This document shows, in pieces, positions 3,438-48,966 of a stretch of DNA of 52,653 nt. A program made the translations under genes and the position numbers. The number at the start of each line of letters is the position of its first letter. The stretch's first letter is position 1. The DNA comes from Candidatus Hydrogenedentota bacterium (GTDB taxonomy: Bacteria > Hydrogenedentota > Hydrogenedentia > Hydrogenedentales > SLHB01), in NCBI GenBank assembly GCA_016215105.1, contig JACRLJ010000016.1, forward strand, positions 1 through 52,653, in the 5' to 3' direction. A model generated the notes under the pieces. The model saw only the letters and a program-made list of their open reading frames with translations. It searched no databases and was not told the DNA's origin.

Positions 3438-4550
3438 ATGCCAAATGAGACCGTCACTCGAAGGGAATTCGTCCAGGAGGCGGTGGCAACCGCCCTGGCG
3501 TCAACCGTCGCGCTCTCTGCCGCGGCCAGGACCGGCGGGCAAGGCAAAGTCCCGAATGAAGTGAAGCGCACCCGGAACTACAAGCCGGAAATGGAATATC
3601 GCCGGCTAGGCAAGACGGGGCTCTGGGTCTCGGCCGTCTCCCTCGGTGGCCATTGGAAACGGATCGACAAGGCGATCCAGGCGGGCGCGGAAATCGATCC
3701 CTATGAAGGGCCGAACCAAAAAGCCGATGTCGAGCCGTTCATGAAGAATCGGGACGCGGTGATTAGCCGCTGCCTCGAGGTGGGATTCAACTGTATCGAC
3801 TTTGCCGGCAATGCGGAGGCGGAAACCTACTGCAACGTGCTTGGCAAACGGCGCGAGAAGGTGTACCTGTGCTATTCGCATCCCAAGAGCGAACTGCGGG
3901 AGCCGGAAAATCGCACCGCCAAGAAACTCCTCGAGTTGTTCGAGGCCGGACTGAAACGCTGTAAGCTCGAGTACGCCGACGTGTGGCGCCTCATGGCCCT
4001 CGAGCGCGGTGGCCGCCATTCCCAGGCCGACGTGGATGCGATGATCGAGGCGCTGAACACCGCCCGCAAGAAGGGGCTGTGCCGCCATACGGGGCTATCC
4101 ACGCACGATCGCGAATGGGCCAAAACCATCATCGAGACCTATCCGGACACCATCGAGGTCCTGTGTACGCCGTACACGGCTACGTCGAAGGAGTTGCCGG
4201 AAGACAGTCTTTTCGACGCGATCCGGAAATATGACGTGGGCGTACTGGGCATCAAGCCATTCGCCAGCAACGCCATCTTCAAAGGCGACGGCGCTCCGAA
4301 CGGGCCGCACGTTGAAGAAGACAACGAGCGCGCGCGGTTGGCCATTCGCTATATTCTTTCCAACCCGGCCATTACGGCCCCCATCCCGGGTCTCGTAAGC
4401 GCCCATCAGGTTGATAACATGGTTCGCGCCATCAAGGAAAGCCGCGAGCTTGATTTGAAGGACGTAGCAAAGCTGGACGTGATCCGGAAGGACATGATGG
4501 CCCAACTGCCGGACGATCACCGGTGGTTGACAGAATGGGAATACGTCTAG
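3438..4550 (+). CDS. Tat-exported aldo/keto reductase-fold protein, degenerate active site
   Basis: 370 residues; ATG preceded by GGAGGG at 8 bases. The N-terminus carries a twin-arginine motif (TRREFV, Arg8-Arg9) and an alanine-rich hydrophobic stretch, so Tat export is expected. The mature part begins MEYRRLGKTGLWVSAVSLGG, the start of an AKR (beta/alpha)8 barrel, and runs to the end (GIKPF, PGLVSAHQVDN). Aligned by eye with the canonical YghZ-type AKR at 47962-48966, only the tetrad Asp survives (Asp121). The Tyr position is Ala126, the Lys position is Ser147 (or His148) and the His position is Met186. It is therefore either a non-catalytic AKR or an enzyme with different chemistry. It lies just upstream of a secreted tetraheme/TIM-barrel fusion, suggesting a shared periplasmic role. 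Confidence 0.85.
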   Translation: MPNETVTRREFVQEAVATALASTVALSAAARTGGQGKVPNEVKRTRNYKPEMEYRRLGKTGLWVSAVSLGGHWKRIDKAIQAGAEIDPYEGPNQKADVEPFMKNRDAVISRCLEVGFNCIDFAGNAEAETYCNVLGKRREKVYLCYSHPKSELREPENRTAKKLLELFEAGLKRCKLEYADVWRLMALERGGRHSQADVDAMIEALNTARKKGLCRHTGLSTHDREWAKTIIETYPDTIEVLCTPYTATSKELPEDSLFDAIRKYDVGVLGIKPFASNAIFKGDGAPNGPHVEEDNERARLAIRYILSNPAITAPIPGLVSAHQVDNMVRAIKESRELDLKDVAKLDVIRKDMMAQLPDDHRWLTEWEYV

Positions 4551-4551
4551 A

Positions 4552-4638
4552 GGCGCGGCCAGAAAGCCTCCGTTTACCAAAACCCTACAAAGGCGAGCAC
4601 TAGTGTTAAACAACTTACAGATGCTTTCTGGCCGCGCC
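4552..4638. terminator. Long-loop perfect inverted repeat after the AKR gene
   Basis: GGCGCGGCCAGAAAGC (4552-4567) and its exact complement GCTTTCTGGCCGCGCC (4623-4638) enclose 55 bases that include the palindrome CACTAGTG. A third partial copy, GGCTTTCTGGCCG, follows at 4651. The left arm begins right after the upstream stop codon and there is no T-run. It could be a terminator or processing hairpin, or the footprint of a small element. Confidence 0.5.
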
Positions 4639-4674
4639 GCGTCAATTAACGGCTTTCTGGCCGAACTCCTAGTG

Positions 4675-6051
4675 ATGAACACGATGAAACGGATCTTGCT
4701 CGTTGTGTGCGTGTCGTTCTTCGCCGGGCAGTGGGTGGCCAGTTCCGAAGAGGCGCCCACGGCGGCCTCACCGGGAACGGCCGCTGGCCCGAACGGCGCC
4801 GCGCCGTGGGAACCGGTGATCGCCGAATGGAAAAGCAAGAAGGACCACAAACCGGCGAGCAACTCTTACTGCTATGTATGCCATCTCAACTACCAGAAAG
4901 AGACCTTCGCGCAGAAACACAAGGCCGCAGGTGTTGGCTGCGAAACATGTCACGGCGTTTCCGACAAGCATAGCGAAGACGAGGACAACGTCACGCCACC
5001 GGATGTCATGTATCCAAAGGAAGGTATCGCCCCGTTGTGCGCCGTGTGCCATCCGAATGACGATCTGAAAAAAGGCGGAAAACACGACGCACTGTTCACC
5101 AACCCGGCCGCCGAAACGAAAGCCTGCATGGAGTGCCACGGCGAAGACCATCGCCTGAAAGTGCGTACGCGCAAATGGGACAAGCAAACCGGCAAACTGG
5201 CCTGGGATGATGGGGTGCGGATGATGAAAGAGAATCCAGGAAGCAAGTCAGAGAAAGTCGGGGGTATTTTTGCCAAAGACAATCTCGTAGCGTGGTGTAT
5301 CGTGCCGTTCGACGCAAAGAAGCGCGGGCCGGTCGAGCGGGCCGACATGCTCAAGCGGCTGGGATTCTCCAAATTCGCCTACGACTGGCGCGACGAGCAT
5401 GTCCCCTCGTTCGATCAGGAAATAGTGACGTTGAAGGAACACGGCATCGAGTTCTTCGCGTTCTGGGGGCAGCACGAAGAAATGTTCAAGCTGTTTGAAA
5501 AACACAAGATCTCGCCTCAAGTCTGGATGGTCGTTCCAAGTCCCCCGGACGGTCCACGCGAGCAGATGGTCGAAGCCGCCGCGAAACAGTTGCTTCCCCT
5601 CGTCGAACGGACCCGTCAATTGGGCTGCAAGCTGGGCCTCTATAATCACGGCGGCTGGGGTGGCGAACCCCGGAACATGGCCGCCGTGTGCGAATGGTTG
5701 CAGAAGAACGCTGGCGGCAAGCATGTCGGCATTGTCTACAACTTTCATCACGGCCATGCCGACATCGGGCAGTTCCGCGAGCTATTCGCCCTCATGAAGC
5801 CGTACCTGCTCTGCGTCAACCTCAACGGCATGAACGCCGACGCAAACCCGCTGATCCTCCCCATCGGCCAAGGCCAGCATGAGAAGGACATGATGCGGGT
5901 CGTTGTCGAGAGCGGATACAAAGGCCCCATCGGCATCCTGGGCCACAGAGCCGAAGTCGACGCCGAAGAAGCCCTCCGCCAAAACCTCGAGGGCCTCGAT
6001 AAACTCGCCCCCGAACTCCTGGGAAAACCGGTGACTGGCGCGGGAAAATAG
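4675..6051 (+). CDS. Secreted tetraheme cytochrome c fused to xylose-isomerase-like TIM barrel
   Basis: 458 residues from the ATG at 4675. An in-frame ATG at 4684 gives MKRILLVVCVSFFAG, equally good as a signal peptide. Upstream codons are open but run through the inverted repeat, so I reject the earlier start. Four CxxCH heme sites lie at about residues 66-70 (CYVCH), 89-93 (CETCH), 122-126 (CAVCH) and 151-155 (CMECH). Extra histidines nearby could be distal ligands. From about residue 200 to the end the sequence is a sugar-phosphate isomerase/epimerase barrel (PF01261-like), with YNHGGWGGEP, YNFHHGH, NLNGMN and GQGQH segments. Heme attachment requires a periplasmic location, so the barrel acts there too. 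A redox-coupled sugar transformation is inferred; no substrate can be named. Confidence 0.85.
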   Translation: MNTMKRILLVVCVSFFAGQWVASSEEAPTAASPGTAAGPNGAAPWEPVIAEWKSKKDHKPASNSYCYVCHLNYQKETFAQKHKAAGVGCETCHGVSDKHSEDEDNVTPPDVMYPKEGIAPLCAVCHPNDDLKKGGKHDALFTNPAAETKACMECHGEDHRLKVRTRKWDKQTGKLAWDDGVRMMKENPGSKSEKVGGIFAKDNLVAWCIVPFDAKKRGPVERADMLKRLGFSKFAYDWRDEHVPSFDQEIVTLKEHGIEFFAFWGQHEEMFKLFEKHKISPQVWMVVPSPPDGPREQMVEAAAKQLLPLVERTRQLGCKLGLYNHGGWGGEPRNMAAVCEWLQKNAGGKHVGIVYNFHHGHADIGQFRELFALMKPYLLCVNLNGMNADANPLILPIGQGQHEKDMMRVVVESGYKGPIGILGHRAEVDAEEALRQNLEGLDKLAPELLGKPVTGAGK

Positions 6052-18368: not shown

Positions 18369-18523
18369 CGGGGTGACGCACCGTGGCGGGCGCTTCGTGC
18401 GGCCGCGATGGGCTTGGTGCTGTGCTGTTACGGTGGGAATGCGGGCCGGTGCGGGGTAGATTCCTCGCGTCACTCGGATGGACACGTTGGGCAGGTCTTG
18501 GATTGCGAAGACGGGAGAGAATC

Positions 18524-21031
18524 ATGCGCGCACTTTTTTGTCTCAGTCTGGTGGTGTTGGCCGGAGCGACCGGGTCTGCCGCTGAAAAGGGCGGAAAAAT
18601 CGAGGCGTCGGCGCTGAAAAAGTGGGTCATTGTGGTGGCGCCGGACGCTATTCCCAGCGAGAAGTTCGCCGCGGAAGAGTTTCAGGGGCTAGTCAAGCAG
18701 TGTACCGGCCTGGACCTGGCCATCAGCAATACGCCGGCGAATAAGCGCGCCATCCTCATCGGCCTCGGCGCGCAAGGTAAGACGAAAGCCATAACGGCGG
18801 ACAGTATTGCCAAGCTTGGCGACGAAGGACTGTCCATTGCAGTCGAGCGCAACGTCATCCGCATCGCAGGAGGGCAGCCGCGGGGAACCTTGTATGGCGT
18901 GTACGAGTTCTTCGAGCGGTACTTTGGCGTGCGATTTCTCACGTACGACCACACCCACATTCCGCCCGACGCCGCTCAACGGACCATCCCGCTGGAAAGC
19001 TATTCCTACACGCCGCCGCTGTCGTTCCGGTACAGCTACTACACCGAGAACCGTGAGCATCATGAGTTCGCGACGCGGCTTCGCGTCAATACCGTTTCCA
19101 CCGAGGAGAAACTGGGCGGGGTGACGCCGCAGAACCTGATCAACCACAGTTTGTTTCGCTGGGTCACGGTCGAGAAATACGGCAAGACCCACCCGGAGTA
19201 TTTTGCCTTGGTAGACGGCGAACGCAAGCTTGATGTGAGAGGGGGTGGCCCCGAAGTCTGCGTGACGAATCCGGAAGTCGTGGACATCGTGACCGAGGGC
19301 GTGCTGAAAGACCTGGACGCGAATCCCAAGCTGCGCAATATCAGCGTCAGCCAAAATGACAACGATCAATACTGCCATTGCCCAGCGTGCGAAGCAATCA
19401 ACCAGCGCGAGGGTACGCCCATGGGCTCGCACCTTGCGTTCGTGAATGCGGTGGCGGAGCGGGTTGAGAAAAAGTATCCGGATGTGAAGATTGGAACTCT
19501 AGCCTATTGGTACACGCGCAAGGCGCCGAAAACCATCGTGCCGCGCAAGAATATGCAGATTCAGTTGTGCAGCATCGAGTGCTGCACGCTGCATCCCGTC
19601 AACGACCCGAACTGTGTGAAGAACCGCGAATTCTATCAGGACATGATGGCATGGAAAGCTGTCTGTAACGACATCTGGATTTGGAACTACAACACGAATT
19701 TCGCTATCTACGACCTGCCATTCCCGAATCTGCGCGTGATCGCGCCCAATGTGCGGTGCTTCGTCGAGAACAACGCCCATGGCATCTTCATGCAGGCCAA
19801 CGCGGGTGGCAACGCCGGCGAGATGAGCGATCTGCGCAATTATGTGATGTCGCGCTGCCTGTGGGACCCGAAGTCGGACGGGGCGGCGCTGGTGAAGGAG
19901 TTCTGCGGGCTTCATTACGGCAAGGCGGCCGAGCCGATTCTGGACTACCTCACGATGTTGCACGACAACGCGGAGGCGAAAGGCGTGCATCCGGGGTGTT
20001 TTCCCAAGCCGCAGGAAGTCGGCCTTACCCCGGAAATCGCGGTGAAGTCGCTGAAGTATTTCAAACGGGCGGTGGAACAGGCTGATGACGATCTCGTGCG
20101 AAAGCGTGTCGAGAAGGCCTCCATTTGCGCGTACAATGCGGCCGTGATGATGGCGCCGGGGACGTGGAAGTACGAGAACGGATACTGCCGCCTGACGGTT
20201 CCCGATGAACTGAAGGGCATGAGTACTCGATATGTGGAGCTGTGCAGGACGTACAAGATGTCCGCCGTATCCGAAGGTGGCGATTCCGGGCCTTACCTGG
20301 AGGAAGTCGCGCAGCGCGAGGCGGGTTATCCCGCGGAATGCCTGGAGAATGACGTCTGGAGACTGGTCATTCTGCCGGAGCGGAACGCCAAGCTCGTAAG
20401 CATGTTCTATAAGCCCGCCAAGAAGGAATTGCTGGTGGCGATGACCCACGGTGACATTTTGCGGGGCACACACAAGGAACTCATCATGAAAGGCGCCAAG
20501 AAGGGGACTTCGCCCAAGTTCGAAGTGATCAAGCGCGCCCCGTTTACGCTGCAGGCGGCGTTGGAGAACGGAATGAAGCTAGAGCGAATTATCGCCTTGA
20601 CTTCGGATGGCGCCATCAAATTTAGATCGAGGCTGACCAATGGCGCCGCGGACCCGGCGGTGTATCAGTTCAAGGCCCATCCGGAGTTCGACCCCGGCAG
20701 CATTTCGGACAAGTCCGAAGTGGTATCGGCGTATGTGAAGAGCGGCGGTGTGTGGACAATAGTCAACAAGAACTGGAAGTTGGACACGGGGCCTGGCTTG
20801 GCGCTATTGAAGGACGGCAAGGACAGCGCCTTTGCGTTCTACAGTCATGAGGCGCATTTTGGCGTGCAGGTGAGTTATCAACCCAAACAGATTGATCGCC
20901 CCTATCTATCGTGGTGGCCGGAGTGGCCACAGATGAATCTCGAAGTCATTAGCCTCGCGAAGGAGTTGAAGACGGGCGAATCACTCGGCCTTGAGTATCA
21001 ATTCCGTTACCTGGCGGATGCGCCGAAGTAA
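18524..21031 (+). CDS. Secreted DUF4838 glycosidase-like protein, tandem copy 1
   Basis: 835 residues from the ATG at 18524 (signal peptide MRALFCLSLVVLAGATGSAA; GGGAGAG upstream). Three parts can be read. Residues 25-165 form an N-domain like that before alpha-glucuronidases (PSEKFAAEEFQGLVKQCTG, PRGTLYGVYEFFERYFGVRF). Residues 190-500 are DUF4838, with SQNDNDQYCHCPACEAINQR (Cys284, Cys286, Cys289), TLAYWYTRKAPKTI and NAHGIFMQANAGGNAGEMSD. The last 220 or so look like a galactose-mutarotase-type beta-sandwich. DUF4838 is a presumed glycoside hydrolase in polysaccharide clusters; its substrate is unknown to me. Copies 2 and 3 follow at 158 and 54 bases. Confidence 0.85.
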   Translation: MRALFCLSLVVLAGATGSAAEKGGKIEASALKKWVIVVAPDAIPSEKFAAEEFQGLVKQCTGLDLAISNTPANKRAILIGLGAQGKTKAITADSIAKLGDEGLSIAVERNVIRIAGGQPRGTLYGVYEFFERYFGVRFLTYDHTHIPPDAAQRTIPLESYSYTPPLSFRYSYYTENREHHEFATRLRVNTVSTEEKLGGVTPQNLINHSLFRWVTVEKYGKTHPEYFALVDGERKLDVRGGGPEVCVTNPEVVDIVTEGVLKDLDANPKLRNISVSQNDNDQYCHCPACEAINQREGTPMGSHLAFVNAVAERVEKKYPDVKIGTLAYWYTRKAPKTIVPRKNMQIQLCSIECCTLHPVNDPNCVKNREFYQDMMAWKAVCNDIWIWNYNTNFAIYDLPFPNLRVIAPNVRCFVENNAHGIFMQANAGGNAGEMSDLRNYVMSRCLWDPKSDGAALVKEFCGLHYGKAAEPILDYLTMLHDNAEAKGVHPGCFPKPQEVGLTPEIAVKSLKYFKRAVEQADDDLVRKRVEKASICAYNAAVMMAPGTWKYENGYCRLTVPDELKGMSTRYVELCRTYKMSAVSEGGDSGPYLEEVAQREAGYPAECLENDVWRLVILPERNAKLVSMFYKPAKKELLVAMTHGDILRGTHKELIMKGAKKGTSPKFEVIKRAPFTLQAALENGMKLERIIALTSDGAIKFRSRLTNGAADPAVYQFKAHPEFDPGSISDKSEVVSAYVKSGGVWTIVNKNWKLDTGPGLALLKDGKDSAFAFYSHEAHFGVQVSYQPKQIDRPYLSWWPEWPQMNLEVISLAKELKTGESLGLEYQFRYLADAPK

Positions 21032-21189
21032 ATGCCGGAAGTTCGTGGGGACACAATGTTCTGAATTGCGAACAGTTCAGACGATAGGGCGAAGACGCGG
21101 CGCCGTTCTGCGCGCTAGCGCGGCGGTCTCGCATCATGACCTTTGGTAGCCATTGGGCCGCGGGTCCATAGGGAGAAAGGTGGTCGAAT

Positions 21190-23706
21190 ATGCGCACGTG
21201 TGTCTATCTCAGTTTGATCGTCATGGCGGGTCTCTCGGCGTCTGCCGCGGAAAAGGGCGGAAAAATCGAGGCTTCGGCGATGAAGAAGTGGGTCATCGTG
21301 GTGGCGCCGGACGCGATTCCGAGCGAGAAATACGCCGCCGAAGAATTCCAGGCGCTGTTCAAACAATGCACGGGGGCGGACTTGAAGATCGCCAACGCCA
21401 CCCCGAGGAAACGCGCCATTCTCATCGGCCTCGGCGCGCAAGGTAAGACGAAAGCCATAACGGCGGATAGTATTGCCAAGCTTGGCGACGAAGGGTTGTC
21501 CATTGTGGTCGAACGCAACGTCATCCGCATCGCCGGAGGGCAGCCGCGCGGGACCCTGTACGGCGTATACGAATTCTTCGAGCGGTACTTTGGCGTGCGA
21601 TTTCTGACCCACGACCACACCTACATTGCGCCGGACGCCGGCTCGAGGACGATTCCGCTTGAAACGCATACGTACACGCCGCCACTCTCGTTCCGGTACA
21701 GCTTCTATACCGAAAACCATGAGCATCACGAATTTGCGACGCGGCTACGCGTCAATACGGTTTCAACCGAGGAGAAACTCGGCGGGGTGACGCCGCAGAA
21801 CTTGATCAACCACAGTTTGTTTCGCTGGGTCACGGTCGAGAAATACGGCCAGTCGCACCCGGAGTATTTTGCCTTGGTGAACGGCGAACGCAAGCTCGAG
21901 GTCGGCGGTGGCGGCCCCGAAGTGTGCGTGACGAATCCGGAAGTTGTGGACATCGTGACCGAGGGCGTGCTGAAGGACCTGGACGCGAATCCCAAGTTGC
22001 GCAACATCAGTGTCAGCCAAAATGACAACGACCAATACTGCCATTGCGCCACGTGTGAAGCCATCAACCAGCGTGAGGGCACGCCGATGGGCTCGCACCT
22101 GGCGTTCGTGAATGCGGTGGCGGAGCGCGTCGAGAAGAAGTACCCGGACGTGAAGATCGGGACCTTGGCGTATTGGTATACGCGCAAGGCGCCGAAGACC
22201 ATCGTCCCGCGCAAGAATATGCAAATTCAGTTGTGCAGCATCGAGTGCTGCACGCTGCATCCCATCAACGACCCGAACTGCGCCAAGAACCGCGAGTTCT
22301 ATCAGGACATGATGGCATGGAAGGCCATCTGCAACGACATCTGGATCTGGAACTACAACACCAATTTCAGCAACTACGATCTGCCGTTTCCGAATCTGCG
22401 CGTCATCGCGCCCAATGTGCGCTTCTTCGTCGAGAACAACGCTCATGGCATCTTCATGCAGGCGAACGCCAGCGGGAACGCGGGCGAGATGAGCGACTTG
22501 CGTAATTATGTAATGTCGCGCTGTCTTTGGGACCCGAAGTCGGACGGGGCGGCGCTGGTGAAGGAGTTCTGTACGCTGCACTACGGCAAGGCGGGCCAGC
22601 CCATCCTGGATTACCTCACCATGCTGCACGACAACGCCAATGCTATGGGTGTGCATCCGGGGTGTTTTCCAAAGCCGCAAGAAGTGGGCCTTACGCCGGA
22701 TATTGCGCAGAAGGCGCTGAAGTATTTCCAGCAGGCTTCGTCCGTAGCGGATGACGACACGGTACGGAAGCGCGTCGAAAAGGCGTCCATCTGCGCTTAC
22801 AAGGCCGGAGTCATGATGGTACCGGGAAAGTGGAGTTATGAAGACGGGGCTTGCCGCTTCTCGGTCCCTCAAGAGTGGAAAGGGGTCAGCGCCCGGTATG
22901 TCGAACTGTGCAAGACGTATAACATGTCGTCGGTTTCCGAGGGTGTAGGCTCCGGTCCATACCTCGAGGACATCAAACAGCGCGACGCGGATTATCCCGC
23001 CATGTGCCTGGAAAACGCGGTCTGGAACTTGATTGTGCTGCCGGAACAAAACGGCAAGATTGTAAGCATGTTCAACAAGCCCGCGAAAAGGGAACTGGTG
23101 GCGGGAATGACTCACGGGGACATATTGCACGGCACGCATGAGGAGCTAATCCTAAAAGGGGTTCAGGATGGCGCCGCCACAAAGTTTACCGGGACCTCAA
23201 AGGGAACTGCGCTGGAGTTGGCGGCGGCACTTTCGGACGGCACAACGTTTGTACGCCGCATCGCGTTGCGACCCAATCAGCCGGACGTGATCTCGTTTGA
23301 TTCGACTCTGACCCATCGGGGTTCGCAGCCCGTGAAGTACCAGTTCAAGTCGCGTCCTGAGTTCGTTCCTGCGAGCAGATCGGACAAGCCCGAAGTCGTG
23401 GGGGCGTATGTGAAGAGCGGCGGCGTCTGGAAACTATTTAATCGTGGTTGGAAGGGCGACACGGGACCGGACCTGGAACTGTTGAGGCAGGGGAAAGACG
23501 GGGTGTTCAGTTTCTACAATCATGAGGCCCATTTCGGCGTGCAGGTGAACTACGCGCCGAAGCAAGTTGATCACCCTTACGTATGGTGGTGGCCCGACTG
23601 GCCGCAGATTAATCTGGAGATCTTCACGCCGCTGAGGGAGCTTAAGCAGGGCGAGGCGATGAAACTCGAATACCAAATCCGCTACTTGGCCGATGCTCCG
23701 AAGTGA
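21190..23706 (+). CDS. Secreted DUF4838 glycosidase-like protein, tandem copy 2
   Basis: 838 residues; signal peptide MRTCVYLSLIVMAGLSASAA, with GGGAGAAAGG upstream. The domain order is the same as in copy 1. Over the first 550 residues it is nearly identical to copy 1, with stretches of DNA unchanged for tens of bases (for example around 21421-21490 against 18760-18830). The C-terminal sandwich is clearly more diverged (TKFTGTSKGTALELAAALSD against the equivalent region of copy 1). That contrast suggests either gene conversion keeping the N-terminal two-thirds alike, or specialisation of the C-terminal module. The Cys cluster is kept as QYCHCATCEAINQR. Confidence 0.85.
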   Translation: MRTCVYLSLIVMAGLSASAAEKGGKIEASAMKKWVIVVAPDAIPSEKYAAEEFQALFKQCTGADLKIANATPRKRAILIGLGAQGKTKAITADSIAKLGDEGLSIVVERNVIRIAGGQPRGTLYGVYEFFERYFGVRFLTHDHTYIAPDAGSRTIPLETHTYTPPLSFRYSFYTENHEHHEFATRLRVNTVSTEEKLGGVTPQNLINHSLFRWVTVEKYGQSHPEYFALVNGERKLEVGGGGPEVCVTNPEVVDIVTEGVLKDLDANPKLRNISVSQNDNDQYCHCATCEAINQREGTPMGSHLAFVNAVAERVEKKYPDVKIGTLAYWYTRKAPKTIVPRKNMQIQLCSIECCTLHPINDPNCAKNREFYQDMMAWKAICNDIWIWNYNTNFSNYDLPFPNLRVIAPNVRFFVENNAHGIFMQANASGNAGEMSDLRNYVMSRCLWDPKSDGAALVKEFCTLHYGKAGQPILDYLTMLHDNANAMGVHPGCFPKPQEVGLTPDIAQKALKYFQQASSVADDDTVRKRVEKASICAYKAGVMMVPGKWSYEDGACRFSVPQEWKGVSARYVELCKTYNMSSVSEGVGSGPYLEDIKQRDADYPAMCLENAVWNLIVLPEQNGKIVSMFNKPAKRELVAGMTHGDILHGTHEELILKGVQDGAATKFTGTSKGTALELAAALSDGTTFVRRIALRPNQPDVISFDSTLTHRGSQPVKYQFKSRPEFVPASRSDKPEVVGAYVKSGGVWKLFNRGWKGDTGPDLELLRQGKDGVFSFYNHEAHFGVQVNYAPKQVDHPYVWWWPDWPQINLEIFTPLRELKQGEAMKLEYQIRYLADAPK

Positions 23707-23760
23707 GCATCGAGACTCTTGCCGGGGACCTTGGCGGCTTGCCAGGAAAGGTGGTTGAGA

Positions 23761-26289
23761 ATGCGTGTATTTGTTTGTATCTCTCTAGTGTCGCTCGCGA
23801 GCGTTGTGGCGGCGGCCTCTGATAAGGGCGCGGGAATTCCCGCCACAGAACTGAAAGACTGGGCCATTGTCGTGGCGCCGGACGCCATTCCGAGCGAGAA
23901 GTCTGCGGCGGAAGAGTTCCAATCTCTGTTCAAACAATGTACGGGGACGGATTTGAGGATAGTCGACAGGCCGGCAAAGAAACGCGCCGTGCTTATCGGT
24001 ATCGGGGCGCAGGGGAAGTCCGAGGCCGCGACTCCGGAGTCTGTCGAAAGGCTAGGTGACGAAGGGCTGTCCATAGTCGTCGAACGGAATGTCATCCGGA
24101 TTGCGGGCGGGCGCCCGCGCGGGATCTTGTACGGCGTGTACGAGTTCTTCGAGCGGTACTTCGGCGTGCGTTTCCTGACGCACGACCACACGCATATTCC
24201 TCCCGGCGCCGGACAGACGGTCATTCCGCTCGATATCTTCAGCTACGTTCCGCCATTCTCATTCCGATGCGCCTCGTACAAAGAGAACTCAGATCACCCG
24301 GACTTCGCCGCGCGGCTTCGCATGAACACCTTTTCGCGTGACGAGAAGCTCGGGGGGGCGACTCCACAAAATCTTATCAGTCACTCGTTTCTCCATCAGA
24401 TCAGCGCCGATGAATATGGCAAGACGCACCCCGAGTACTTTGCGCTGGTGGAAGGAGTTCGCAAGCTCGATGTCTCCGGTATCTCGGGCCGGACGGAATC
24501 CCAACCGTGCGTGACGAACCACGACGTTCTGGACATCGTGACGGCCAATGTGTTGAAACAATTGGACGCGAGCCCAGGGATGCGCAACATCAGTGTAAGT
24601 CAGAACGACAACGACGAGTACTGCCATTGCCCGGCGTGCGAAGCCATCAATCAGCGCGAGGAAACGCCGATGGGGGCACATTTGGCGTTCGTGAACGCCG
24701 TGGCGGAGCGCGTCGAGAAGAAATATCCCCGCGTGAAGGTGGGTACGTTGGCGTACGCCTATACGCGCAAGGCGCCAAAGACGATCAAGCCGCGTCCAAA
24801 CGTGCAAATCCAACTGTGCAGCATCGAGTGCTGCACGCTGCATCCGATTGACGATCCGGACTGTCCGAAGAACCGAAAGTTCTTTCAGGACGTGATGGCG
24901 TGGAAAGCAATCTGCAATGACGTTTGGATGTGGAATTACAACACGGACTTCTCCTATTACGACTTGCCGTTTCCGAACTTGCGCGCCATCGCGCCCAATG
25001 TGCGGTTCTTCGCCGAGAACAACGCAAAGGGCGTGTTCATGCAAACCAACGGACAAGGCAACGCGGGTGAGATGTGCGACCTCCGCAACTACGTGATCGC
25101 ACGATGTTTGTGGAACCCGCGCCAAGATGGCTGGGCCTTGGTGAACGAGTTCTGCGCGCTGCACTACGGAAACGCGGGCCCGCCTATTCTGGACTACCTT
25201 GAGATGCTGCATGACACCACCGAGGCCTCGGGAAGTCATCCGGATTGCTATCCGACTCCTGAAGTGGTGGGGCTGACGCCGGAGATTTCGCGCAAAATAC
25301 TCGGCTATTTCGACCAGGCGCTGGCGCTGGCCGATAGCGACGCCGTTCGGGCGCGAGTCGAAAAAGCGTCCATCTGCGCGTACCGGGCGGTGCTCACCAC
25401 CGTGGCGAGACCCTGGCGATACGAGGACGGCGTCTGCCGGGTGGACATTCCTGCCGGCATGCGCGGCGTTCCGAGCCGCTATGCGGCGCTGTGCAAGACT
25501 TACGGAATGTCCATGTCGGCTGAGAACGTGCCGGTCGAAGTCTACTTGGAACAGGTAAAGCGATTCGATACCGGCTATCCGGCCGTAAAGATCGAGAATA
25601 GCGTCTGGCGGTTGCTTGCCCTTCCGGAAGAGGACGGGAAGATTGTAAGCATGTTCCACAAGCCTACAGGGCGGGAATTGCTGGCCGCAACGACGCATCC
25701 CGATATACTGAGGGGAACGCACGAGGATCTGTTTCTCACGGGTTTGAAGAAGGGCACACCGTTGAAATACACGGCCACGGTCAAGGATTCGAGGTTGGAA
25801 CTCCGGCTTCCGTTGGGGAATGACGCCACGTTTGTGCGGCGCGTAGAACTAAAATCAAGCAGGCCCAACACGATCTTCTTCGAGAGTACGTTGACCAACT
25901 GTGGAGCGGAGCCGGCCACGTATCAATTCAAGGCCCATCCCGAGTTCAACCCGGCGAGCACGTCGGACAAGCCGGAAGTAATCGCCGGGTACGTTAAGAA
26001 CGCCGGAAGCTGGACGCAGTTCAATCGTGGATGGCACAGGGAGACCGGGCCGGACCGGGACCTATTGCGGCAGGCGAAAGACGGGGCGTTTGCGTTCTAT
26101 AGTCACGAAGCGCGTTTTGGCGTGCAAGTGAACTACCGGCGGAGTCAACTTGAGTACCCATATTTTTGGTGGTGGCCTGATTGGCCGCAGGTTAACCTCG
26201 AGCTGTTCACTCCGAAAAAGGAATTGAAGAAGGGCGAGGCGATGACGCTCACCTATGAGGTCCGGTACTTGGCGGAAGTGCCGAAGTAG
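23761..26289 (+). CDS. Secreted DUF4838 glycosidase-like protein, tandem copy 3
   Basis: 842 residues from the ATG at 23761 (signal peptide MRVFVCISLVSLASVVAAAS, AGGAAAGG upstream). It has the same three-part layout, but is more diverged throughout than copies 1 and 2 are from each other. It has a short insertion (SGISGRTESQPCVTN) and changes such as TNGQGNAGEMCDLRNYVIAR. The CHCPACEAINQRE motif and the FFERYFGVRFLTHDHTHIPP end of the N-domain are preserved. It was probably the first to split off. It is the last gene on this strand before a convergent radical SAM gene 30 bases away. Confidence 0.85.
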   Translation: MRVFVCISLVSLASVVAAASDKGAGIPATELKDWAIVVAPDAIPSEKSAAEEFQSLFKQCTGTDLRIVDRPAKKRAVLIGIGAQGKSEAATPESVERLGDEGLSIVVERNVIRIAGGRPRGILYGVYEFFERYFGVRFLTHDHTHIPPGAGQTVIPLDIFSYVPPFSFRCASYKENSDHPDFAARLRMNTFSRDEKLGGATPQNLISHSFLHQISADEYGKTHPEYFALVEGVRKLDVSGISGRTESQPCVTNHDVLDIVTANVLKQLDASPGMRNISVSQNDNDEYCHCPACEAINQREETPMGAHLAFVNAVAERVEKKYPRVKVGTLAYAYTRKAPKTIKPRPNVQIQLCSIECCTLHPIDDPDCPKNRKFFQDVMAWKAICNDVWMWNYNTDFSYYDLPFPNLRAIAPNVRFFAENNAKGVFMQTNGQGNAGEMCDLRNYVIARCLWNPRQDGWALVNEFCALHYGNAGPPILDYLEMLHDTTEASGSHPDCYPTPEVVGLTPEISRKILGYFDQALALADSDAVRARVEKASICAYRAVLTTVARPWRYEDGVCRVDIPAGMRGVPSRYAALCKTYGMSMSAENVPVEVYLEQVKRFDTGYPAVKIENSVWRLLALPEEDGKIVSMFHKPTGRELLAATTHPDILRGTHEDLFLTGLKKGTPLKYTATVKDSRLELRLPLGNDATFVRRVELKSSRPNTIFFESTLTNCGAEPATYQFKAHPEFNPASTSDKPEVIAGYVKNAGSWTQFNRGWHRETGPDRDLLRQAKDGAFAFYSHEARFGVQVNYRRSQLEYPYFWWWPDWPQVNLELFTPKKELKKGEAMTLTYEVRYLAEVPK

Positions 26290-47961: not shown

Positions 47962-48966
47962 ATGGCGTTTCATCCCGACCGTTACACCACGATGCAGTAC
48001 CGCCGCAGCGGCCGCAGCGGGCTAATTCTGCCCGCCGTGTCGCTTGGTATGTGGCACAACTTCGGCACGCGCGCGGACCACGAGAACTGCCGCGCCATGA
48101 TGCGGACCGCGTTTGACCTCGGGATAACGCATTTTGACCTGGCCAACAACTATGGCCCCGAACCGGGAAGCGCGGAAGAGCGCACAGGACGCATCTTGCG
48201 CGAGGATTTCGGAGCCCACCGGGATGAACTCATCATTTCCAGTAAAGCGGGCTACCGGATGTGGCCGGGCCCATACGGAGAGTGGGGCAGTAAGAAATAT
48301 CTCGTGGCGAGCCTCGATCAATCCTTGAAACGGCTTGGCCTTGACTACGTGGACATCTTCTATTCGCACCGTCCGGACCCGAATACTCCGCTCGAAGAAA
48401 CACTCGGCGCGCTCGACCTAGTTGTCCGGCAGGGCAAAGCGCTATACGCAGGGGTGAGCAGCTACCGCGGGGCGTACTTCGTGCGCGCGGCGGAATGTGC
48501 AAGACAGCATGACTGGGCGCCGATCACGATTCATCAGCCGAACTATAACCTGTTCGACCGTTGGATCGAATCCGACCTTCTGCAACATACCGAGTCGTAC
48601 GGCGCCGGTGTTATCGTCTTTTCGCCCTTGGCGCAGGGAATGCTCACGTCGAAGTATCTCGATCCCGCCAATCCAATTCCGAAGGAATCCCGCGCGGCCG
48701 ATCCGGATGGGTTTCTTCAACCCGAACAGGTGACCAAAGAGCGAATCGAGCGCGCCCGGAAACTGGCCCCGTTGGCGGAATCGCGCGGTCAAACGCTAGC
48801 GCAATTGGCGATTGCGTGGACGCTGCGCGATCCCCGCGTGACCAGCGCTCTGATCGGAGCGCGCACTCCGGCGCAAATCACGGATTGCGTTGGCGCCCTC
48901 AAGAATCTGAGTTTCAGCTCGGAAGAATTGGCGCGTATCGACGAGATTTGTCCGCAGCGTGGGTGA
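47962..48966 (+). CDS. yghZ: YghZ-type aldo/keto reductase (glyceraldehyde-3-phosphate reductase-like)
   Basis: 334 residues; AAGGAGGT stands four bases before the ATG. The sequence closely follows the E. coli YghZ/AKR14 pattern: RYTTMQYRRSGRSGLILPAV, SLGMWHNFG, THFDLANNYGPEPGSAEERT, IISSKAGYRMWPGPYGEWGS and FYSHRPDPNTPLEETLGALD. The catalytic tetrad is intact (Asp59, Tyr64, Lys95, His136), unlike the exported AKR at 3438-4550. YghZ reduces L-glyceraldehyde-3-phosphate and other aldehydes with NADPH, in detoxification. No signal peptide, so cytoplasmic. It stands 63 bases before the glycosyltransferase gene. Confidence 0.9.
   Translation: MAFHPDRYTTMQYRRSGRSGLILPAVSLGMWHNFGTRADHENCRAMMRTAFDLGITHFDLANNYGPEPGSAEERTGRILREDFGAHRDELIISSKAGYRMWPGPYGEWGSKKYLVASLDQSLKRLGLDYVDIFYSHRPDPNTPLEETLGALDLVVRQGKALYAGVSSYRGAYFVRAAECARQHDWAPITIHQPNYNLFDRWIESDLLQHTESYGAGVIVFSPLAQGMLTSKYLDPANPIPKESRAADPDGFLQPEQVTKERIERARKLAPLAESRGQTLAQLAIAWTLRDPRVTSALIGARTPAQITDCVGALKNLSFSSEELARIDEICPQRG

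Follow-up and report, generated by a model that had tools for sequence, protein, structure and literature searches.

Aldo-keto reductases (AKRs) are textbook NAD(P)H enzymes and are mainly cytoplasmic. In the LacABC system, the oxidoreductase is a glucose-methanol-choline (GMC) flavoprotein, and LacB is a cytochrome c. In the periplasm, LacABC turns lactose into 3'-ketolactose, for which hydrolysis by a DUF1080 protein has been proposed (PMC9007349). A 3-keto-glycoside beta-eliminase has been described as a sugar-phosphate-isomerase-like TIM barrel (PMC10628242). Here we analyzed a locus in a 52,653-nucleotide stretch of DNA from a Candidatus Hydrogenedentota bacterium (hereafter the window), in which a gene for an AKR-fold protein with a predicted export leader is followed by a gene for a tetraheme cytochrome fused to a xylose-isomerase-like barrel. 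The present data support the view that the AKR and the tetraheme cytochrome form a real two-gene module across two bacterial phyla, of which the cytochrome-barrel fusion is a lineage-specific variant seen only here.

The module resembles the LacABC system of Caulobacter with its DUF1080 protein in having a cytochrome c partner, which is tetraheme here, in the DUF1080 and sugar epimerase genes that lie nearby in relatives, and in the periplasmic sugar oxidation that it may carry out. However, the oxidoreductase of LacABC is a GMC flavoprotein whereas an AKR fold is found here, and the LacABC cytochrome lies outside the tetraheme family of this locus. The flanking genes that were scanned, of which not all were annotated, included no GMC gene. 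AKR14A1 (YghZ) and the L-galactose dehydrogenases share the AKR fold and are among the best Protein Data Bank (PDB) matches by structure and profile, but they are NAD(P)-dependent and have the full Asp-Tyr-Lys-His tetrad, whereas the family in the window keeps the Asp only and carries an export leader. The fused barrel has the fold of D-tagatose 3-epimerase, YcjR and AL1, and D-tagatose-3-epimerase-like genes adjoin the module in relatives; the difference is that the barrel subfamily of the window is secreted and has Tyr/Asn/Asn/Leu in place of Glu/Asp/His/Glu. Tetraheme cytochromes of the c3_2/c554 type (small tetraheme cytochrome, flavocytochrome c3 N-domain) likewise have four CxxCH motifs and conserved distal His residues in about 110 residues, but here sugar-type domains are fused to the cytochrome and the partner has an AKR fold instead of a flavin domain. 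By analogy, the module may act like a cytochrome-linked periplasmic sugar dehydrogenase with an oxidoreductase of another fold. Searches of the open-licence literature for AKRs with multiheme cytochromes in planctomycetes, or for a periplasmic D-tagatose epimerase with a cytochrome, returned nothing relevant, which is weak evidence of novelty.

Pairing of the AKR and cytochrome genes

The window spans one entire contig (G000:C155), one of 171 that make up a 95% complete genome of 6.7 Mb. It was compared with the 67 other genomes of a 68-genome sample of its own phylum and with 392 genomes of Planctomycetota, from which this phylum is classed apart. The AKR family was present in 11 of the 392 Planctomycetota genomes and the tetraheme family in 12, including all 11 (Fisher p-value = 1.6e-20, uncorrected for genome relatedness). 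In 18 of the 20 loci with an intact downstream flank, representing 10 of the 11 genomes, the cytochrome gene lies 3' of the AKR gene on the same strand. The pairing proposed in the earlier note is borne out by this adjacency and by the near-identical phylogenetic profiles, which contradict the possibility that the two genes are never neighbours in relatives.

The nearest pair was found in a Planctomycetota metagenome-assembled genome, where the gene for an AKR that is 68% identical (L091, 200-1309) lies 74 bases ahead of the gene for a tetraheme protein of 211 residues (1383-2018), which is free-standing, has no barrel and is 51% identical to the tetraheme domain of the window. In the window's own phylum, the AKR family was absent from the other 67 genomes, and the tetraheme cytochrome was found in one other genome (G042), fused to a 3-keto-disaccharide-hydrolase domain. 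A close kinship of the module inside the phylum was rejected since both nearest relatives are planctomycete proteins. Their placement makes a transfer of the module between phyla likely, as judged from sequence comparison. Searches for the AKR on plasmids or viruses gave no match. One 2.9-Mb Planctomycetota genome (G228) has eight members of the AKR family, of which five are strong and three are more distant; a tetraheme gene lies next to every one of them (L076, L077, L079, L081, L083, L102, L103, L104).

The AKR-fold protein and the tetraheme cytochrome

The two genes lie on the plus strand about 125 bases apart, with the AKR-fold gene first. The features of the locus are as follows.

3438..4550, +: AKR-fold protein with predicted export, 370 amino acids (aa), with a putatively rebuilt active site in its family (PF00248, E = 4.4e-17; model; alignment)
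3438..3530, +: predicted twin-arginine leader of the AKR, TRREF plus a hydrophobic stretch (sequence; invariant R8, R9 and F11)
4551..4674, +: intergenic gap between AKR and cytochrome, with 22-nt inverted repeats at 4552-4573/4617-4638 and 4547-4568/4651-4672
4675..6051, +: cytochrome-barrel protein, 458 aa in one uninterrupted frame, with leader, four CxxCH motifs and xylose-isomerase-like TIM barrel
4675..4749, +: Sec-type signal peptide of the cytochrome-barrel protein, MNTMKRILLVVCVSFFAGQWVASS, judged by eye
4828..5226, +: tetraheme c3-like domain (PF13435, PF14537, PF09699; alignment A2)
4870-4884, 4939-4953, 5038-5052 and 5125-5139, +: CxxCH motifs, residues 66-70, 89-93, 122-126 and 151-155
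5209..5262, +: fusion junction, with the cytochrome C-terminus DGVRMM, the linker KENPGSKSEKVG and the start of the mature barrel
5263..6048, +: xylose-isomerase-like TIM barrel, metal ligands replaced in its subfamily (PF01261; alignment A4; AlphaFold)

The (beta/alpha)8 fold of the AKR is documented both by the Pfam match to Aldo_ket_red (PF00248) and by the AlphaFold model, which has a predicted local distance difference test (pLDDT) score of 87; in Foldseek searches its best PDB match is AKR14A1/YghZ (4aub, E = 1.9e-15), with L-galactose dehydrogenases also among the matches. The N-terminus, MPNETVTRREFVQEAVATALASTVALSAAA, contains a twin-arginine motif, and its R8, R9 and F11 are unchanged in 18 of 18 family members. 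The leaders of orthologs match PF10518 weakly, and TatC is encoded in the genome of the window. Export by the twin-arginine translocation (Tat) pathway is thus a prediction that rests on the motif.

We aligned the AKR of the window with 17 relatives and two canonical AKRs. Only the Asp of the catalytic tetrad (D121) is retained across the family. In the full-length members the Tyr is gone together with its loop, which is deleted, the Lys is replaced by Ser (Asp in one member), and the His by Thr, Met or other residues. In addition, the position of the nicotinamide-stacking aromatic residue is occupied by Ile and the Arg of the phosphate loop is lost. The AKR had been called degenerate in the earlier note, which is correct and holds for the whole family. 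Several replaced cofactor-contact positions in this alignment argue against NAD(P)H-dependent carbonyl reduction. New residues have become invariant (H72, W183, R184, H223, K273) or nearly so (R225), and the invariant residues sit at or beside the C-terminal ends of the predicted strands. Since this is where AKRs hold their active site, we read the family as having a probably remade site at the barrel mouth rather than as a dead gene. A decaying pseudogene was rejected on the basis of the identical losses in all full-length members, the new invariant residues and the intact frames. A second AKR of the window (47962-48966) is canonical and YghZ-like, with the full tetrad (PF00248, 4.5e-71), and contrasts with the degenerate one.

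One possible reading, to which we give a probability of about a third, is that the AKR-fold protein is a nicotinamide-independent redox enzyme. It would represent an exported lineage on the AKR scaffold that has lost NAD(P)H chemistry and moves electrons from sugars to its own tetraheme cytochrome, or the other way, via the remade mouth (His72, Asp121, Trp183-Arg184, His223-Asp224-Arg225, Lys273), with sugar-processing domains welded to the cytochrome. The protein might instead be an ordinary exported NAD(P)-dependent AKR that holds its cofactor tightly, as in glucose-fructose oxidoreductase, next to an unrelated cytochrome. The AKR fold and the retained D121 would fit, and Tat carries folded, cofactor-loaded proteins; even so, this is very improbable, because Tyr, Lys and His are missing in the full-length members and the pairing with the cytochrome is strong. 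It is also conceivable, though rather doubtful, that the AKR scaffold was recycled for a non-redox function as a sugar isomerase or lyase or for sugar binding, the cytochrome serving another periplasmic oxidoreductase. The loss of three of the four catalytic residues, of the phosphate-loop Arg and of the stacking aromatic would fit such a function, but the near one-to-one pairing with a tetraheme cytochrome across genomes speaks against it, as do the residues that have newly become invariant, which point to a dedicated active site.

The listed open reading frame of the cytochrome-barrel gene starts at a GTG at 4603, whereas a start at the ATG at 4675 yields a signal peptide. Multiheme Pfam matches span residues 55-163, with PF13435 and PF09699 above the gathering cut-off and PF14537 just below it, and the domain scores with the Cytochrome_C554, Cytochrom_c3_2 and Paired_CXXCH families. 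Besides the leader peptide and the four CxxCH motifs, three His residues (82, 99 and 159) are invariant in the A2 alignment of 15 sequences and are plausible distal ligands. Covalent heme attachment at the four CxxCH motifs is predicted from these motifs and from the cytochrome c assembly proteins encoded in the genome. Chance CxxCH matches were rejected, as the four motifs and three His residues are common to the 15 sequences. The AlphaFold model of the cytochrome part was of low confidence (pLDDT about 45), had no heme, and was not used. In the gap upstream (4547-4672), a GCGCGGCCAGAAAGC-like 15-mer occurs three times and makes up the 22-nt inverted repeats (chance expectation in the window, 0.33).

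The fused barrel

The cytochrome-barrel fusion was not found in the 67 other genomes of the phylum or in the 392 Planctomycetota genomes. Inheritance of the fusion within the phylum was rejected, given that these 67 genomes contain neither the AKR nor the fusion. Cytochrome and barrel are separate genes in relatives, as the earlier note had considered for the case that an assembly error had joined them here. The fact that the fusion was found in this genome alone would be in line with such a join of two genes. Nevertheless, we regard an assembly join as highly unlikely. The junction is in frame and falls exactly between a normal cytochrome C-terminus and the start of a mature barrel: the orthologous cytochrome of L091 ends a few residues past DGVRMM, and standalone barrels start there after their own leader. 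The barrel in the window lacks the signal peptide that free-standing barrels carry, the genome contains no other good copy of either domain, there is no repeat at the junction, and the guanine-plus-cytosine content at codon positions is similar in both halves. That an exported-type AKR stands beside a secreted protein with four CxxCH motifs fused in frame to a xylose-isomerase-like barrel, as originally noted, was confirmed by Pfam, by AlphaFold and Foldseek, and by the conserved twin arginines.

The barrel has the eight strands of the PF01261 family, with pLDDT values above 90 over the barrel. AP_endonuc_2 (PF01261) matches residues 283-443 with E = 1.2e-7 and 32.1 bits, against a cut-off of 31.1, and the PDB matches of the AlphaFold model in Foldseek include D-tagatose 3-epimerase (E = 9.6e-10), 3-keto-D-glucoside 4-epimerase YcjR and 3-keto-beta-glucopyranoside-1,2-lyase AL1. 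It belongs to a well-defined secreted family, being 47-58% identical to 13 relatives (mean column identity in alignment A4, 67%). The Glu/Asp/His/Glu divalent-metal site is absent from this subfamily, which has Tyr/Asn/Asn/Leu at the aligned positions, so that isomerase activity cannot be assumed. Members of the barrel family in the window's phylum occur alone or N-terminally in proteins of about 1200 residues; both of the latter that were examined contain pyrroloquinoline quinone (PQQ) dehydrogenase, Laminin_G and cytochrome c domains. In Planctomycetota the family occurs alone or within proteins of about 1450-1550 residues, and one of these proteins has a cupredoxin domain at its end. Together with the tetraheme domain of the window, these fusions join the barrel family to at least three kinds of periplasmic electron carrier. 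In the barrel tree, the barrel of the window clusters with free-standing barrels (the nine-row group containing them has a support of 98/96), one of which is from G068, the planctomycete genome that also carries the closest AKR-cytochrome pair. A gene of the barrel family annotated as 'TIM barrel protein' was also seen on a Spirosoma oryzicola plasmid (NZ_CP089540.1; L165, 6923-7840), within a cluster of SusCD, epimerase, Gfo/Idh, GH140 and ThuA genes.

Partners in relatives and the proposed mechanism

Sugar-type partners recur around the module. Fusions of the cytochrome with a 3keto-disac_hyd (DUF1080) domain are called by Pfam in L081 and L083 and by a profile built from these in L079 and L082; a further one is found in L046, from the phylum of the window. 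A separate DUF1080 frame lies between AKR and cytochrome in L086 and L102. A xylose-isomerase-like barrel lies immediately upstream of the AKR in L079, L081, L082, L083 and L089, and one gene off in L103. The first five of these retain the Glu/Asp/His/Glu metal site, and the barrel of L082, the only one compared with the PDB, is D-tagatose-3-epimerase-like (1e-43) and also matched 3-keto-D-glucoside 4-epimerase. Further neighbours are glycoside hydrolases and a sulfatase. These observations favour the part of the earlier note that linked sugar chemistry to electron transfer; a coupled isomerase activity finds no support, the metal ligands being replaced in the fused barrel family. Overall, the interpretation in the earlier note is partly supported. 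The AKR-family member of L074 (4201-8181 and 8535-9659 being the two genes) adjoins a GH106 alpha-L-rhamnosidase, which is a hint at the type of substrate. In L103 (6764-7648) and L104 (1748-2629), both of one planctomycete genome, DUF3800 genes lie immediately upstream of the AKR-cytochrome pairs, one called by Pfam and the other by the likeness of its first residues. In the window itself, three large tandem proteins of 838-882 aa (18383-26289) each have DUF4838 and GH67N-like domains.

Taking these data together, we give an about even chance to a periplasmic sugar oxidoreductase module wired to c-type hemes. The AKR-fold protein would leave the cytoplasm folded, by Tat, and perform two-electron redox chemistry on a sugar-type carbonyl or hydroxyl at the rebuilt barrel mouth (H72, D121, W183-R184, H223-D224-R225, K273), presumably in physical contact with the cytochrome. 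The tetraheme cytochrome would connect this chemistry with the respiratory chain; most likely it would accept the electrons released when the sugar is oxidised, with quinone or other periplasmic cytochromes as the eventual route. The cytochrome-fused barrel may handle the keto-sugar by binding, epimerisation or elimination, a job that in relatives might fall to separate exported D-tagatose-3-epimerase-like barrels or to 3-keto-disaccharide-hydrolase domains. The oxidation direction is favoured by the catabolic sugar enzymes in the neighbourhood and by the precedent of LacABC with its DUF1080 protein; in addition, a barrel of the sugar-isomerase-like type is able to cleave 3-keto-glycosides (PMC10628242).

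The cytochrome of L077 carries a fused NapC/NirT domain (PF03264, 2.4e-24); this is a quinol-dehydrogenase family and thereby ties the module to the membrane. This raises the alternative of a periplasmic respiratory reductase, in which electrons from quinol would reach the AKR-fold protein by way of cytochromes of the NapC and tetraheme types, and a sugar-derived or other carbonyl would be reduced as terminal acceptor. The tetraheme domain scores with PF14537 and PF13435, a type that occurs in cytochromes feeding periplasmic reductases such as flavocytochrome c3. We consider this alternative unlikely, though worth keeping in view: the NapC fusion was seen just once, and the other neighbours (sugar epimerases, DUF1080, glycoside hydrolases, sulfatase) are more typical of catabolic oxidation.

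Several observations weigh against a sugar-oxidizing module. Partners of the NapC type usually carry electrons outward from quinol and would thus speak for reduction. The residues with which AKRs transfer hydride from NAD(P)H are gone from the AKR, and the metal ligands of the barrel are replaced. As to the pairing, 8 of the 18 adjacent loci are paralogs of one genome (G228) and thus not independent, two AKR loci (L074, L084) have no cytochrome, and six cytochrome loci have no AKR (L046, L130 on a short contig, L131, L133, L134 and L135). It should also be noted that sugar-enzyme genes are common in these genomes and that the neighbour counts are raw, with no background rate.

If the proposed sugar oxidoreductase module is real, AKR chemistry would reach as far as the respiratory chain through a conserved, exported, tetrad-less family and its multiheme cytochrome partner. 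It would also add a type of oxidoreductase to the periplasmic keto-sugar pathways that are emerging in the Planctomycetes-Verrucomicrobia-Chlamydiae (PVC) bacteria and Bacteroidota. For Planctomycetota and related uncultured groups, the module offers a concrete role for some of their many unassigned cytochromes.

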